NCBI GenBank assembly: GCA_021325235.1
Contig: JAJPHN010000031.1
Coordinates: 124,001 to 188,000 of the forward strand
DNA from: Terriglobia bacterium
GTDB taxonomy: Bacteria > Acidobacteriota > Terriglobia > Bryobacterales > Bryobacteraceae
Length of the DNA stretch: 64,000 bases
Direction of reading: 5' to 3'
The position numbers were made by a program, and so were the translations under genes. The notes under the pieces are model-generated. The model saw nothing but the letters and a program-made list of their open reading frames with translations, made no database searches and had not been told where the DNA came from. Positions within the stretch are counted from its first letter, which is position 1; every line of letters starts with the position of its first letter. Shown piece by piece: positions 8,171 to 14,815 of this stretch.

Positions 8171-9235
8171 TTAATGAGACAGGCGTGCGGCGGCCAGCGC
8201 AGTACCTTTCACGCGTGCGGCGATTTTCGAAAAGGCCAGTTCGCGCGCAGTGGAGGTGTCGTCCAGGAACGGAGCGAAACCGCAGTCGTCGGTGGTGCCA
8301 AGCTGGCTCGGCGGGATGTGTTGGGCGGCCTGGAGGACGCGCGCGCAGACTTCATCGGGCGTTTCGAGGCTGGGGCTGATGGGATCGATCACGCCGACGA
8401 AGATTCGGTGATGCGGCTGCATCGTGCGGGCGATCAGGTTCAGGACGCGTTCACGATCGGGTTCGCTTGCCAGCTGAAGATAGAAATTTGTCACGTTGAG
8501 ACGAAAGAGGACAGGCAGAAGGCCGGCGTAGTCGACATCGGCGCTGTGTGTCGCGTCACGATCGCCTCCTGGGCAGGAATGAACACCGAGACGCAGCCGC
8601 TCCTCGGCGGAGAAGCGCTCGAGTACGCGATTGTTCAATGCCACAAATTGCGCCAGAAGTGCACCGGAGGGATCGAGCTTAAGCGCCAGCCGTCCTTCGG
8701 TGAAATCGATCTGCACCTTTTCGGCTCCTGCGTCTAAACATGCGCGGACGTCCTTTTCCGCTTCGTTCACCAGGTCCGCGAGAAACTGTTCCCGCGAGTA
8801 GTTGGGAATTCCTTCTGCGGGATAGAGCAGGCTGAGCGCAGAAGCGGAGATCACGGCCTGCTTGACGGGGAGTGCAGTGAGCTTACGGGGGGCGTTCAGA
8901 TACGAAACGGCGTAGGTGGAGTAACGAAACGGGCCCTCAGTCAGACGCGGCAGCTGGCGCGTGTGACCGTCTGCGAACGGAATCGTGACTCCGCCGGGTG
9001 CGATGTTCGCCGCGCCGTCGATGGGATACGTTGCAAAACTTGGTTTCGTCTGCTCGCCGTCGCTGATGACGGGAGAGCCGGTGGCTTCGAGACGCCGGAT
9101 GGTATCGCTCAAGGCGCGTGCGGAAACTTCTTCGAGATCAGCTCGCGAAAGCTGGCCCTGTTCCCATTTGTGGCGGGCGTCGATCAAGGCCTGCGGACGT
9201 GGAATGCTGCCAATCGGCTCGGTGGGAATGGTCAT
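8171..9235 (-). CDS. Short MetE-like cobalamin-independent methyltransferase (zinc methionine synthase C-domain family)
   Basis: A 354-residue protein matching the catalytic C-terminal half of cobalamin-independent methionine synthase; there is no N-terminal MetE half. It opens with the family-typical PTEPIGSIPRP. Zinc ligands are visible as His and Cys in GVHSCPGGD and a Cys in GTTDDCGFAPF. Short homologues in archaea and many bacteria transfer methyl groups to homocysteine from donors other than methyl-folate, or act in other thiol or selenol methyl transfer. The start ATG 9235 is 18 bases after the stop of the selenoprotein candidate, so co-transcription is likely. The methyl donor and acceptor are unknown. 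Confidence 0.88.
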   Translation of the reverse strand: MTIPTEPIGSIPRPQALIDARHKWEQGQLSRADLEEVSARALSDTIRRLEATGSPVISDGEQTKPSFATYPIDGAANIAPGGVTIPFADGHTRQLPRLTEGPFRYSTYAVSYLNAPRKLTALPVKQAVISASALSLLYPAEGIPNYSREQFLADLVNEAEKDVRACLDAGAEKVQIDFTEGRLALKLDPSGALLAQFVALNNRVLERFSAEERLRLGVHSCPGGDRDATHSADVDYAGLLPVLFRLNVTNFYLQLASEPDRERVLNLIARTMQPHHRIFVGVIDPISPSLETPDEVCARVLQAAQHIPPSQLGTTDDCGFAPFLDDTSTARELAFSKIAARVKGTALAAARLSH

Positions 9236-9253: not shown

Positions 9254-9862
9254 CTATTTGCGAATGTAGCCGTGCTCGGCGGTTCTGATGCCAAACTGCC
9301 GGTGCGCCTCGTCGGACATCGGGTGGACCCCGGCGGCATCGATCCAGCGGTTGTAGAAGTTGAAAAGCGCGCAGACCGTAATGGCGTAATAAATGGCGTC
9401 GCCGCTCCAGCCGGCTGCGTGCAACTGCTCGATATCGGCGGGCGCGATGGTGGGTGACTCATGATTTACTTTGGCGATAAACCGGAACAGTGCTTTCTCC
9501 CGATCGGAGAGTGCGGAGTTTTCCAGATCGCGGAGCACGTCCCAGACCAGCTCTTCGGATCCCAATAATTCCGCTGCAACTGCAGCGTGGTACTTCGTTC
9601 AAAACGGACAGTCATTGTGGTACGACGTGAAGGCAGCGATCAACTCGCGAATTCCAGCGCTCAGAGGAGCTTCGCCGCGCATGATCTCCTGGGTAAACTT
9701 ACTCAGATGGTCCGTGGCGGCAGGCCGGAAAGCGAACAGGTGCCAGATCTGCGGATACTCTGCGCCGCTCGTTTGCATGCGCCGAATGAGATCGGTGTGC
9801 GGGCTCGGTTGCGGATTGTGCTCGACTTCGGAGAGAAGCATCGGTTTCATAGAGCCGGTCAT
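9254..9862 (-). CDS. Predicted AhpD-like selenoprotein (CxxU motif; in-frame TGA 9599-9601 read as selenocysteine)
   Basis: If TGA at 9599-9601 is decoded as selenocysteine, one 202-residue frame runs from ATG 9862 to TAG 9254. The residues around it read YHNDCPF-U-TKYHAAVAA, with Cys85 and Sec88. The two adjacent paralogues read NDCRYCQTAHGAIAA and NDCYFCQTVHGAVAA, so the TGA falls exactly on the second cysteine of the AhpD CxxC active site and the His four residues later is kept. Coding similarity to the paralogues continues on both sides (for example AIYYAITVCALFNFYNRWIDA against IHDTVLIAAAFCMYNRYVDG). The ATG overlaps the upstream stop as ATGA. AhpD-fold proteins are thiol peroxidases or reductants. 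The alternatives are a nonsense mutation or a sequencing error. Confidence 0.85.
9571..9601 (-). promoter_or_regulatory. SECIS-like hairpin immediately after the UGA codon
   Basis: On the coding (minus) strand the bases after the TGA include CGCTGC-AGTT-GCAGCG (9587 down to 9572), a perfect 6-bp GC-rich stem, 7 bp if the A-T pair closes. The loop G and U are 19-20 bases after the TGA, inside the spacing known for bacterial SECIS elements, which need an apical-loop G(U) for SelB binding. The two Cys paralogues have no such inverted repeat at the matching codons. Confidence 0.7.
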
Positions 9863-10452
9863 ACTTTCCAGGCGGTGGTGGACTTCGCGGTTTGCACTTG
9901 CGCCTGGATATCCGAAGGAATGCGATTGTATCCACCCTCGGCAACGGCTGCGGCGCGTGCGCGATAGCTGGCTGGGTCCGTCGGTGCCCACGTCGCGAGG
10001 CCGTCTACGTAGCGGTTGTACATACAAAACGCAGCGGCGATGAGCACGGTATCGTGAATCTCGTGATCGTTCGCTCCCGCCTGCCGCGCCCGGTTAACAT
10101 CAACGGCAGATACGTGCTGGCCGCCCTGCTGAACTTTGCCGGCAATGGCGAGCAGCGCCTTCAGTTTGTCGGAAATCGAAGCGGATAAGTAATCGCGCTT
10201 GACCTGAAGGACGATATCTTCGTTGCCATTCAGATGATGAGCCGCGATCGCGCCGTGAGCGGTTTGACAATAGCGGCAATCGTTGAGCGCTGATACGTAA
10301 GTGGCGATGAGCTCGCGGTCGGCGCGCGAAAGGGAACTCGATTGATGAAGGAGCACATCGGCTAAGCGGCACAGAGGCGCAGCTGTTTCGGGGCGGAAAT
10401 CGAACAGCGCACGGATACCGGGCAGCGTTTCGTTCAACGGAATGTGCGGCAT
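9859..10452 (-). CDS. AhpD-like / carboxymuconolactone decarboxylase-family peroxidase (CxxC, copy 1)
   Basis: A 197-residue AhpD-fold protein of the peroxidase-related CMD family. The redox motif is Cys59-Arg-Tyr-Cys62 followed by His66 (NDCRYCQTAHG). These proteins reduce peroxides or donors through the CxxC pair, and the family name reflects fold rather than proven decarboxylation. It begins MPHIPLNETLPGIRALFDFRPE, very close to the neighbour at 10467-11042, and the stop overlaps the start of the selenoprotein candidate. The ribosome binding site is weak, which fits coupling to the gene 14 bases upstream. It is a useful in-locus control for the CxxU copy. Confidence 0.9.
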   Translation of the reverse strand: MPHIPLNETLPGIRALFDFRPETAAPLCRLADVLLHQSSSLSRADRELIATYVSALNDCRYCQTAHGAIAAHHLNGNEDIVLQVKRDYLSASISDKLKALLAIAGKVQQGGQHVSAVDVNRARQAGANDHEIHDTVLIAAAFCMYNRYVDGLATWAPTDPASYRARAAAVAEGGYNRIPSDIQAQVQTAKSTTAWKV

Positions 10453-10466
10453 ATCGCTTGGGTGGT

Positions 10467-11042
10467 TTAATCGCCGTGGGCCGTAGCTGCGCCGGCGAGC
10501 CGATCGACGGAACCTGCGTAGCCTTCCGTAGCGAGGCGTGCTCCCTGCTGGCGGTATAGCTCGGGATCGTCAGGCGCCCAGGTGGCGAGGCCGTCGACAT
10601 AGCGGTTGTACATGCAGAAGGCAGCGGCGATCAGGACCGTGTCGTGAATCTCGAGGTCGGTTGCACCTTGCTTGCGGGCCGCTTCAATATCGGCAGCGCT
10701 GACATGCTTGCCGCCTTTCTGCACTTTGCCGGCGATTGCGAGAAGCGCCTTTAGCTTATCCGAAATCGGAGCTTTTTCGGGATTGCGTTTGGTGGTGAGG
10801 ACCAGCGCTTCATCGCCGCCGAGATGGTGTGCCGCGACCGCGCCGTGAACAGTCTGGCAGAAGTAGCAATCGTTCTGCGAGGAAACGTAAGTGGCGATCA
10901 GTTCGCGCTCGCCTGGTGATAACGTACTGGGTCCACGAAGCAGAATTTCGGCCAGTTCATTGAGCGGCTTCGCTGTTTCCGGGCGGAACAGCATAGGGCC
11001 GAGAATACCGGGGACGCCTTCGGTGAGAGCAATGTGTGGCAT
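10467..11042 (-). CDS. AhpD-like / carboxymuconolactone decarboxylase-family peroxidase (CxxC, copy 2)
   Basis: A 191-residue paralogue of the preceding gene, with Cys59-Tyr-Phe-Cys62 and His66 (NDCYFCQTVHG). It should be a cytoplasmic thiol-dependent peroxidase or related redox enzyme. The start ATG 11042 has GGAG about 8-9 bases upstream, the best ribosome binding site in the run, so this is probably the first gene of a transcript that continues through copy 1, the selenoprotein candidate and the MetE-like gene. The two CxxC copies share roughly two thirds of residues in the first 70 positions, which points to tandem duplication. The physiological reductant is unknown. Confidence 0.9.
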   Translation of the reverse strand: MPHIALTEGVPGILGPMLFRPETAKPLNELAEILLRGPSTLSPGERELIATYVSSQNDCYFCQTVHGAVAAHHLGGDEALVLTTKRNPEKAPISDKLKALLAIAGKVQKGGKHVSAADIEAARKQGATDLEIHDTVLIAAAFCMYNRYVDGLATWAPDDPELYRQQGARLATEGYAGSVDRLAGAATAHGD

Positions 11043-12927: not shown

Positions 12928-13632
12928 TTACTTGCCCTGAGCGTTCTTTGTGCGGCGGCGCAGCAGCCCTGCGACACCGATCAGACCAGCGCCGATGAGG
13001 GCAAAGGACGCCGGCTCAGGTGTCGCGGTGGTTCCAAAGACCTGATCGACGAAGCTGAAGCCCGCGTTTCCGCCGAAGCTGGTGACGCCCATGTCTTTGA
13101 TGATGTAGAGATTGTTGTAAAGACCATGCAAGCTAAGCGTGTCGGTATCCTGGCAGCCGCCCCCGAAAGCCTGCCCGAAGCATCCCACCGACAACGAACC
13201 CAGATAGTGACCGTTGCCGTCGAAGACCATTTCATCCACGCCCGCCATGGACAAGCCCGTGGCATGGCCATCGAAATCGAGGCCGATCTGGTCAATGCCG
13301 GTGGTGGACTTCACGTCGAAGCTAACCGACAGGTCGGCGTAGGAGACGAAGTAAGGATCTTTTTTTGCGATGGCAGCCGGAACGTCGGCGATGAAGTCGC
13401 TCGAGAAGCGGATGCCATTGCCAAGACCGCTCACCGCTGCAACATCGATCCCCTTTTTGTTGGTGGGAGCCGCGTAGCCCTGATGGCTCACCTGCGCCTG
13501 GAAATTGTCGAAGGTCAGACCGCTGATCGACAGGCTGCCTCCCTTGGAAAGTTGATTTAACGGCGTGGCATGTCCCAGCAGCGGGAGCATGAGAGCCGCC
13601 GTCGAAAAGATGATGGCTTTAGAAAAATGCAT
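12928..13632 (-). CDS. PEP-CTERM sorted exoprotein (copy A)
   Basis: A 234-residue exported protein with a signal peptide (SKAIIFSTAALMLPLLGHA) and a C-terminal PEP-CTERM tripartite signal: PEPAS, a hydrophobic segment (FALIGAGLIGVAGLL) and RRR. Such proteins are processed by an exosortase and tend to accompany exopolysaccharide systems; no exosortase gene is in the window. The mature part contains GxDxxGLDFDGHATGLSM and a Gly/Cys segment, with no known enzymatic motif. I start at ATG 13632, immediately before the signal peptide, with GGAG 12 bases upstream, although the frame is open to 13716. It is paralogous to the next gene upstream. Confidence 0.85.
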   Translation of the reverse strand: MHFSKAIIFSTAALMLPLLGHATPLNQLSKGGSLSISGLTFDNFQAQVSHQGYAAPTNKKGIDVAAVSGLGNGIRFSSDFIADVPAAIAKKDPYFVSYADLSVSFDVKSTTGIDQIGLDFDGHATGLSMAGVDEMVFDGNGHYLGSLSVGCFGQAFGGGCQDTDTLSLHGLYNNLYIIKDMGVTSFGGNAGFSFVDQVFGTTATPEPASFALIGAGLIGVAGLLRRRTKNAQGK

Positions 13633-13712
13633 TTGCGAAAGAATCTCCGATAAAAAATGAGCCCGCTTTTCGGCGCGCATGAATCGAGTGTCGCTGCCGA
13701 TCTCATGCATGC

Positions 13713-13742
13713 GCAAGCTACAGCGGAACTAGACGTACCAGT
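13713..13742 (-). promoter_or_regulatory. Conserved leader block of PEP-CTERM copy A
   Basis: A 30-base block 81-110 bases upstream of ATG 13632 matches, at 23 of 30 positions, a block at the identical distance before copy B. Shared core strings are GCAAG, ACAG, GGA and CGTACC (plus-strand sense). It may be a promoter or regulator site. The gap 13633-14030 otherwise holds the second shared string GCATGAATCGAGT (13677-13689) and the terminator of copy B. Confidence 0.45.
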
Positions 13743-14030: not shown

Positions 14031-14705
14031 TTACGCTTTCACAGCGGCGCTCTTCACGCGGCGGCGCAGCAGACCGGCCACGCCGATGAGACCTGCACCG
14101 AGCATGGCGATCGAAGCCGGCTCAGGAGTGGGAACCGTTCCGAAGGTCTGGTCGATGTTGCTGGTCTGAGCGTAACCAATGAAGAAGCTGCTCGTGTTGA
14201 TGTCCTTCTGGATATACAGATCGCTGTAGTTGCCGTTCAGCGTGATGGTATCGGTCCGACTGCAGCCAGCGAGGTCGCAGGCAACCTTGGCGTAGCCGAC
14301 CATATCACCCTTGCTGTCGAAAACGCTTTCGGTAACCGAAGAAATGGCGAGGCCTTGGAACCATCCGTCGAACGATAACCCTACTTTGTTGATGTAAGAG
14401 CCCGAGGCACTCACGTGGTAATCGATCGTTGAGTCATCGGCGGACGGCGGGGAGAAGAGCGAACCCGCTGCCCAGGTGCTGGAGAACTGAATACCAGTTG
14501 CCGGATGGGTGATGGTCTGCACCCCGATACCGCCACACGTGGTCGGCATCGCGCCCGGACCCTGTTGCGTGGAGATGCAGGAAAAATTGTTAAAGGTCAG
14601 GCCACCGACCATCAGCGTAGGATCTGAAGAAACGGTGTCGGCCTGGCCGAGAAGAGGCAGCATCAGACTGGCTGCCCCGATAAGAATAGCTTTAGAAAAA
14701 CGCAT
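14031..14705 (-). CDS. PEP-CTERM sorted exoprotein (copy B)
   Basis: A 224-residue exported protein with signal peptide (SKAILIGAASLMLPLLGQA) and the C-terminal PEP-CTERM signal PTPEPASIAMLGAGLIGVAGLLRRR. The middle parallels copy A (GLTFNNF against GLTFDNF; GLSFDGWFQGLAIS against GLDFDGHATGLSM; both end IDQ/VDQ-x-FGT), so the pair arose by duplication. It carries four cysteines (CISTQQ, TTCGG, ACDLAGC) that could form disulfides. It should be exported, sorted by an exosortase and anchored or released at the surface. GGAGG lies 12 bases before ATG 14705. The C-terminal signal is nearly identical in the two copies, which fits a shared processing enzyme. Confidence 0.87.
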   Translation of the reverse strand: MRFSKAILIGAASLMLPLLGQADTVSSDPTLMVGGLTFNNFSCISTQQGPGAMPTTCGGIGVQTITHPATGIQFSSTWAAGSLFSPPSADDSTIDYHVSASGSYINKVGLSFDGWFQGLAISSVTESVFDSKGDMVGYAKVACDLAGCSRTDTITLNGNYSDLYIQKDINTSSFFIGYAQTSNIDQTFGTVPTPEPASIAMLGAGLIGVAGLLRRRVKSAAVKA

Positions 14706-14785
14706 TTGCGTACTAGCCTCCGAAAGAAATTCAGCACGCTTGTTTGCCGTGCATGAATCGAGTTTGGGGTCAGAACGCGAATGCT

Positions 14786-14815
14786 GCAAGGCACAGGGGA
14801 GCTAACCGTACCGGT
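14786..14815 (-). promoter_or_regulatory. Conserved leader block of PEP-CTERM copy B
   Basis: This block matches the one at 13713-13742 and lies at the same 81-110 base distance from its start codon. The string GCATGAATCGAGT recurs at 14751-14763. The rest of the 290-base gap up to 14995 shows nothing I can name. Confidence 0.45.

Follow-up and report, generated by a model that had tools for sequence, protein, structure and literature searches.

AhpD-like proteins with a CxxU active site have already been predicted in several bacterial data sets. They were described in the Sargasso Sea set (PMC1088965), and CxxU forms appear in the GOS set (PMC2398784); AhpD-like selenoproteins were also predicted in bacterial genomes (PMC1794560). 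The available part of a 2026 review lists an AhpD-like selenoprotein with CxxU under the model TIGR01926 (PMC13188914). For Acidobacteria, three selenoprotein families and four selenoproteins were counted, their names not being found in the part of the source at hand (PMC1794560). The deep-Sep paper names one Acidobacteriota genome, and its accessible part does not contain the term AhpD (PMC12013277). In the AhpD of Mycobacterium tuberculosis, Glu118, Cys130, His132, Cys133 and His137 are named in the portion of the source consulted, with Glu118, Cys130, Cys133 and His137 as proton-relay residues (PMC3141380).

The gene described here lies in a 64,000-nucleotide stretch of a Terriglobia bacterium draft genome (contig JAJPHN010000031.1), hereafter the window. 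Its product is very probably an AhpD/CMD-superfamily selenoprotein (TIGR01926), in which UGA 84 is decoded as selenocysteine (Sec) by SelB via a hairpin in the mRNA.

The gene, its active site and its relatives

The gene is a single minus-strand frame, running from 9254 to 9850 (or 9862), with the predicted Sec codon as its sole interruption (Table 1) and a TAG stop at 9254-9256. An earlier in-frame ATG (9860-9862) is a possible alternative start, which would give 202 aa, and shares bases with the TGA at which the upstream gene stops (ATGA, 9859-9862). Met is found at the position of the 9850 start in 14 of the 16 rows of our first alignment (A1).

Table 1. Features of the selenoprotein locus, in window coordinates.
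Feature	Position	Strand	Basis
MetE-like protein (Meth_synt_2), downstream of the selenoprotein gene	8171..9235	-	profile match
AhpD-like selenoprotein gene (predicted), 198 aa, CPFU active site	9254..9850	-	TIGR01926 match and alignment
SECIS-type hairpin: 6-bp stem CGCUGC/GCAGCG, loop AGUU	9572..9587	-	-9.3 kcal/mol
His88, matching the His conserved in AhpD-like active sites	9587..9589	-	
UGA codon, predicted Sec, codon 84 of 198 counted from the ATG at 9850	9599..9601	-	
Cys81, first residue of CxxU	9608..9610	-	alignment
Glu69, matching the Glu conserved in AhpD-like active sites	9644..9646	-	
Paralogue, 197 aa, CRYC, ends at TGA (9859-9861)	9859..10452	-	
Paralogue, 191 aa, CYFC	10467..11042	-	

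An earlier note on this DNA, which gave no strand for the gene, had ended it at 9862, placed an in-frame TGA at the second Cys of a CxxC motif, described neighbours with CRYC and CYFC, and seen similarity continue on both sides of the TGA. The gene end is defensible given the ATG there, and the other observations are borne out. The codon occupies the second CxxC position of the CPFU active-site motif, the two paralogues are as described, and the protein is conserved both upstream and, strongly so, downstream of the UGA in A1 and in a second alignment of 22 rows (A2). Glu69, Cys81, residue 84 and His88 are invariant in both alignments.

With Cys substituted for Sec in scoring, the protein belongs to TIGR01926 (peroxidase-related; 99.8 bits for a curated cut-off of 81.8), and it also matches Pfam CMD (30.8 bits, cut-off 23). 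By sequence, the solved structures nearest to it are 2pfx, 3c1l, 6k40, 2oyo and 2prr, which were all five hits. The same structures are the nearest by fold. We predicted the structure from 22 sequences with Cys replacing Sec (best of five models, pLDDT 89.1, pTM 0.87), and in a PDB search with this model their chains are found in the first 16 ranks, with 3c1l, 6k40 and 2pfx nearest. All five have Cys, whereas the window protein is predicted to have Sec; in 2pfx and 3c1l the Glu, the two Cys and the His line up with those of the window protein in two alignments. Relative to M. tuberculosis AhpD, as far as its residues are given in the accessible part of PMC3141380, Glu69, Cys81, residue 84 and His88 have the spacing of Glu118, Cys130, Cys133 and His137. 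The window protein shares with it the conserved Glu, the CxxC/CxxU and the His in the pattern Glu-x11-Cys-x2-Cys-x3-His, with Sec as the second of the pair. However, Phe83 sits where AhpD has His132, and the fold match between the two is weak (1gu9, E 0.21).

Conservation of the UGA codon and of the hairpin

We searched 150 genomes of the family for homologues and found matches in 91. Together with the window's own genome they provided 134 distinct stretches, 132 of which were aligned (two were too short). Several weaker family matches (e.g. G090:C196, G124:C37:5896, G039:C638, G030:C372 and G062:C624) and one from the own genome (G000:C37:112284) were left out of the alignment. Exactly one in-frame TGA is present in 87 of the 132 aligned stretches, every time in the Sec column; at this column the other 45 have Cys (43), Ser (1) or a gap (1). 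This alignment of CxxC and CxxU homologues, which the earlier note had suggested as a check, places an in-frame UGA where homologues have Cys, the pattern by which selenoproteins are recognised. The clustering of the TGA in one column in all 87 TGA-bearing stretches is far beyond chance, in agreement with the note's view that a random nonsense mutation at precisely this codon is unlikely.

A scan of named genomes, which overlaps the family set and from which the best 80 of 305 relatives were kept, found UGA at this codon in 79 of the 80 loci. These loci hold 80 UGA motif matches, 36 of them new with respect to the family set; one is a second match within the same locus (L182) and lacks the hairpin. 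According to the assembly labels, for which mis-binning is possible, the best 80 of 305 comprise 74 Acidobacteriota (Bryobacteraceae, Solibacteraceae, Acidobacteriaceae or family blank), three Gemmatimonadota, and one each of Verrucomicrobiota, Cyanobacteriota and Pseudomonadota. The complete plasmid 2 of Gemmatirosa kalamazoonensis KBS708 encodes a homologue with 60.5% identity, UGA at codon 84 and the full hairpin; it is the only one of 155 plasmid records with a homologue of at least 60% identity. In a sample of 396 genomes of the phylum, 14 had matches at E 1e-40, of which 10 (own genome included) had one internal TGA and four none, counted anywhere inside the match and not by column. Relatives on phage contigs are distant (30-34% identity, six loci). 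Among the relatives with an orthologue, some seem to be cultured, for example KBS708, Bryobacterales bacterium F-183 and strain KBS 96.

Could the UGA be a nonsense mutation or a base-calling error, in a gene that is a pseudogene or an intact Cys gene? The window comes from a draft assembly whose reads are not viewable, and one of the best 80 of 305 named relatives (L211) does have TGC at this codon. However, a mutation or an error would have to recur in the 87 aligned stretches and in the 79 loci, whose labels name four phyla besides Acidobacteriota, as well as in a complete plasmid sequence, and this in a protein conserved on both sides of the codon. Since the same TGA is present in many independent assemblies, among them the KBS708 plasmid, a base error is very unlikely, and we regard this explanation as a whole as extremely improbable. 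A genome-wide reassignment of UGA to a sense codon is more improbable still, to the point of being negligible: we found no point in its support, and homologues bear the TGA at one column only. Moreover, the adjacent paralogue ends at TGA (one of seven window genes whose stop was read), so that UGA is not simply reassigned.

Termination competes with Sec insertion at Sec codons in general. The codon might accordingly serve mostly as a regulatory stop, with a truncated peptide made without selenium and a minor, selenium-sensing read-through, and the adjoining Cys paralogues could cover for the loss. Yet conservation is strong among the residues after the UGA, which fits a functional full-length protein, and many UGA-bearing copies have no Cys paralogue found in their flanks. 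We consider such a role very unlikely, and favour decoding of the UGA as Sec.

Two other genes deserve mention. One is another UGA-bearing AhpD-like gene of the own genome, on a different contig (G000:C60:13263-13856, minus strand; L062), which has 65% identity and a complete SECIS-type hairpin. It lies immediately after a TonB-dependent-receptor-like gene and clusters with copies from three genomes of the same genus. The exception among the named loci, L211 (JASHOS010000225.1), has CPFC; its hairpin lacks one pair and has the loop GGUA, and the locus looks like a recent Sec-to-Cys change.

Sec insertion by SelB depends on the hairpin in the reading proposed here. The rules for bacterial SECIS elements, as given in the available part of PMC13188914, are a loop of 3-9 nt, a stem of 4-16 bp, a G in the first two loop positions, a distance of 16-37 nt from the UGA and an MFE of at most -7.5. 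The window hairpin conforms to them: its 6-bp stem begins 11 nt past the UGA, its 4-nt loop lies 17 nt past the UGA and has the G within its first two positions, flanked by A and U, and its energy is -9.3 kcal/mol. Taken alone, it is not significant (z -1.14; 23 of 200 shuffles fold as well). We therefore compared homologues, and the case for a SECIS element is a comparative one. Of 84 Sec forms, 77 have the full 6-bp stem, and of 43 Cys forms none does. A hairpin following the bacterial rules (in our own coding, wherever it lies) occurs in 80 of the 84 Sec forms, with four missing them, versus 3 of the 43 Cys forms; these counts leave out three UGA-bearing stretches scoring under 110 bits.

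When codons were shuffled within amino acids, the mean pairing was 5.841, versus 5.905 observed, a value that none of 5,000 shuffles reached; the effect is small because the peptide is conserved. In slid controls, 4.9 of 6 pairs are retained at -3 and 4.25 at +3, because Ala codons repeat, and the full stem is found in at most 3 of 84. The codons next to the loop are the most informative. In the 72 Sec forms (of 84) with GU at its loop place, the flanking Ala and Val codons are GCG-GTC in 44 and GCA-GTT in 28, with no mixed combination; the 12 forms without this GU are left out of the count. On the tree, both flanking synonymous sites change 13 times, and nine of nine independent pairs go together (p 0.0039). 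Over all 84 Sec forms, the two sites make a standard pair in 78. These third-position changes leave the protein sequence as it is, and so the constraint acts on the RNA; the synonymous covariation in 72 of 72 sequences is a clean evolutionary footprint of a bacterial SECIS loop.

Selenocysteine machinery and tRNAs

The absence of Sec machinery had been named beforehand, in the earlier note, as an outcome that would refute the proposal. The own genome carries all four components: selA (501.9 bits), selB (377.2 bits, nearly full length), two matches to selD (362 and 357.9 bits), and selC as one tRNA-Sec (73.1 bits) with anticodon TCA according to ARAGORN. The tRNA-Sec starts with GGAAGCTA and ends with TAGCTTCC-G-CCA, termini that we read as an 8-bp acceptor with G as the discriminator base. 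This genome is a draft with an estimated contamination of 4.77%. It also has a partial second SelB (G000:C36:150-1004, minus strand; L010) at the end of a 9.7-kb contig. By eye, the surroundings of this SelB resemble those of the full-length selB, and the contig is possibly a contaminant.

In the 150 family genomes, selB is over the cut-off in 128 and tRNA-Sec, scored with stricter filters that lose weak matches, is found in 122. Genomes without machinery are here those where none was detected at these limits in draft genomes. The UGA form is present in 81 genomes (counting G090, with unconfirmed TGA position, and G088, with a distant match), and 80 of them have selB over the cut-off or tRNA-Sec, 64 having both. 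The remaining one (G006, 80% complete) is the sole UGA-form genome among the 11 without detected selB or tRNA-Sec. Among the 69 genomes lacking the UGA form, machinery is found in 59 and none is detected in 10 (Fisher p 0.003 over the 150 genomes, relatedness ignored). Two genomes with Cys (G119) and Ser (G104) at the Sec codon of the orthologue are both among these 11; G104 has two SelB-like matches, both below the cut-off.

Alternatively, the UGA could be read as Cys or Ser by an opal suppressor, in the manner of a selC* tRNA-Cys or an allo-tRNA. Genes for allo-tRNAs have been reported in Acidobacteria (PMC7609411, in the part available), some relatives have a second tRNA-Sec-like gene together with shortened SelB-like proteins, and one can conceive of an odd tRNA beyond these models or in the missing part of the draft. 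However, ARAGORN scans covering each of the 42 tRNA matches in the draft revealed the TCA anticodon in the tRNA-Sec alone. The discriminator of the tRNA-Sec is read as G, as opposed to the U73 named for selC* tRNA-Cys in the text at hand, and selA and selD are present. Suppression is, on balance, highly improbable as the explanation of the UGA.

The shortened SelB-like proteins of relatives (e.g. G099, G144, G100, G145, G082 and G104) score around 200 bits and match SelB 1-263, with several relatives carrying two of them, and the second tRNA-Sec-like genes found in several relatives (e.g. G099 and G144) score around 50 bits. Neither was seen in the own genome. Both are possibly linked to the allo-tRNAs reported in Acidobacteria.

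Taken as sequence evidence, the data strongly support selenocysteine at UGA 84. SelB with Sec-tRNA would bind the hairpin just downstream and decode the codon as Sec, resulting in an active site Glu-x11-Cys-Pro-Phe-Sec-x3-His. By analogy with AhpD, Sec and Cys would form a selenenylsulfide during the turnover of peroxide or another oxidant, to be reopened by a cellular thiol reductant, and the two co-encoded Cys paralogues would do similar chemistry with a disulfide. We infer the actual incorporation of Sec and these roles of the paralogues; judging the substrate and the reductant from the family only, the most likely work of the enzyme would be thiol/selenol-based reduction of peroxides or a related oxidant.

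Paralogues, neighbourhood and known systems

The tree of 131 rows has an orthologue clade of 98 (84 Sec, 13 Cys and 1 Ser) and a separate clade of 31 with the neighbouring paralogues (30 Cys and 1 UGA-bearing); the Sec, Cys and Ser labels need six changes on it. The Ser form (G104) keeps the first Cys, and two near-identical copies of G039 have Thr instead of the first Cys and Cys at residue 84. The UGA-bearing member of the paralogue clade (L119; G094:C37, around 2982 of the reverse strand) has CFFU with the UGA at the same codon. Its hairpin is poor and Sec is uncertain; we do not claim it as a Sec form. The L119 locus also holds a MetE-like gene.

In two relatives, too (G035 and G094), a Sec copy lies next to a Cys paralogue, and the window copy groups with their clustered UGA-bearing copies in the tree. 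Six clustered copies in other genomes have Cys. The nine clustered copies may represent one lineage or two: the free tree separates them, and a constraint keeping them as one group increased the likelihood by 3.89 (p-AU 0.573). Of the six genomes in which the clustered copy has Cys, five possess both selB and tRNA-Sec and the other, G062, possesses selB; three of the six (G014, G030 and G062) also carry a Sec copy elsewhere. Since Cys copies are also found in genomes that keep the machinery, its loss may explain some of the replacements but not all.

The MetE-like gene downstream of the selenoprotein gene is an uncertain member of its unit; an alcohol dehydrogenase-like gene also lies downstream in the window. 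Homologues of the MetE-like protein (65-68% identity) were found in 5 of 164 fetched loci (L119, L182, L140, L130 and L128), all with AhpD-like genes, and those of the window ADH, SET and MDH in none of the 164. In a survey of the neighbourhoods of 94 anchor genes, receptor-like frames were present in 32 loci at varied positions (of 36 such frames, 21 lay upstream in the same orientation), MFS genes downstream in 13 and gamma-glutamyltranspeptidase genes upstream in 6. Some Sec copies lie behind TonB-dependent-receptor-like or gamma-glutamyltranspeptidase genes and others before MFS genes, and no single recurrent partner emerged over the 94 anchor genes. A first neighbourhood cluster was rejected, as it looks like an artefact of antisense frames. 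Elsewhere in the window, two proteins (12928-13716 and 14031-14789, both on the minus strand) have C-terminal ends that resemble PEP-CTERM sorting signals.

The Sec enzyme, the two Cys paralogues and the MetE-like protein might form one pathway in which Sec is needed for a hard step. This idea draws on the AhpD-like debrominase Bmp8, which the fold search returned among its weaker matches (E 5.7e-4 to 1.1e-3), and on the MetE-like genes recurring beside AhpD-like genes in the five fetched loci; we hold it to be very unlikely. If true, the hard step could be, for example, reductive halogen removal or organic peroxide reduction, and the enzyme would be an AhpD-fold counterpart of Sec deiodinases.

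The analysis recovers a gene that would probably be taken for a broken or truncated one in routine annotation, and reveals an AhpD-like selenoprotein that is widespread in a family of soil bacteria. Its clade includes several natural Sec-to-Cys replacements and one Ser form, with the machinery undetected in some genomes and kept in others. Together with the Sec/Cys/Cys tandem cluster, these forms offer a natural panel for asking what an AhpD-type enzyme gains from Sec.

How does this protein compare with those already described? The AhpD-like selenoprotein in the available part of PMC13188914 has, like ours, a match to TIGR01926 and a CxxU with Sec second, but it is another protein, likened to the window protein by model and motif only. 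NF041238 (AhpD_rel_CFYUT) is, by its name and by the table in that part of the review, also a CxxU (seleno)protein with an AhpD-like domain. The window protein is not a member of it, with 32.8 bits for a cut-off of 175 and a match covering only positions 215-335 of the 357 of the profile. The Acidobacteriota clade, the tandem Cys paralogues and the CPFU motif were not seen in the accessible parts of PMC13188914, PMC1088965 and PMC2398784, and the open-access literature, with subscription papers mostly outside its scope, yielded no paper on this Acidobacteriota group. The earlier note had called the replacement of Cys by Sec a known kind of substitution, which the CxxU forms in the consulted parts of these three sources confirm. 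It had also found the Cys-Cys-Sec trio notable: the cluster is real, but adjacent Sec and Cys paralogues do not amount to a new principle. The window gene very probably encodes an AhpD-like CxxU selenoprotein, of a type already predicted in other bacteria and not a new kind. To these the analysis adds a large Acidobacteriota clade in which most members have Sec and Cys occurs repeatedly, as well as a tandem cluster where one Sec member stands with two Cys members.
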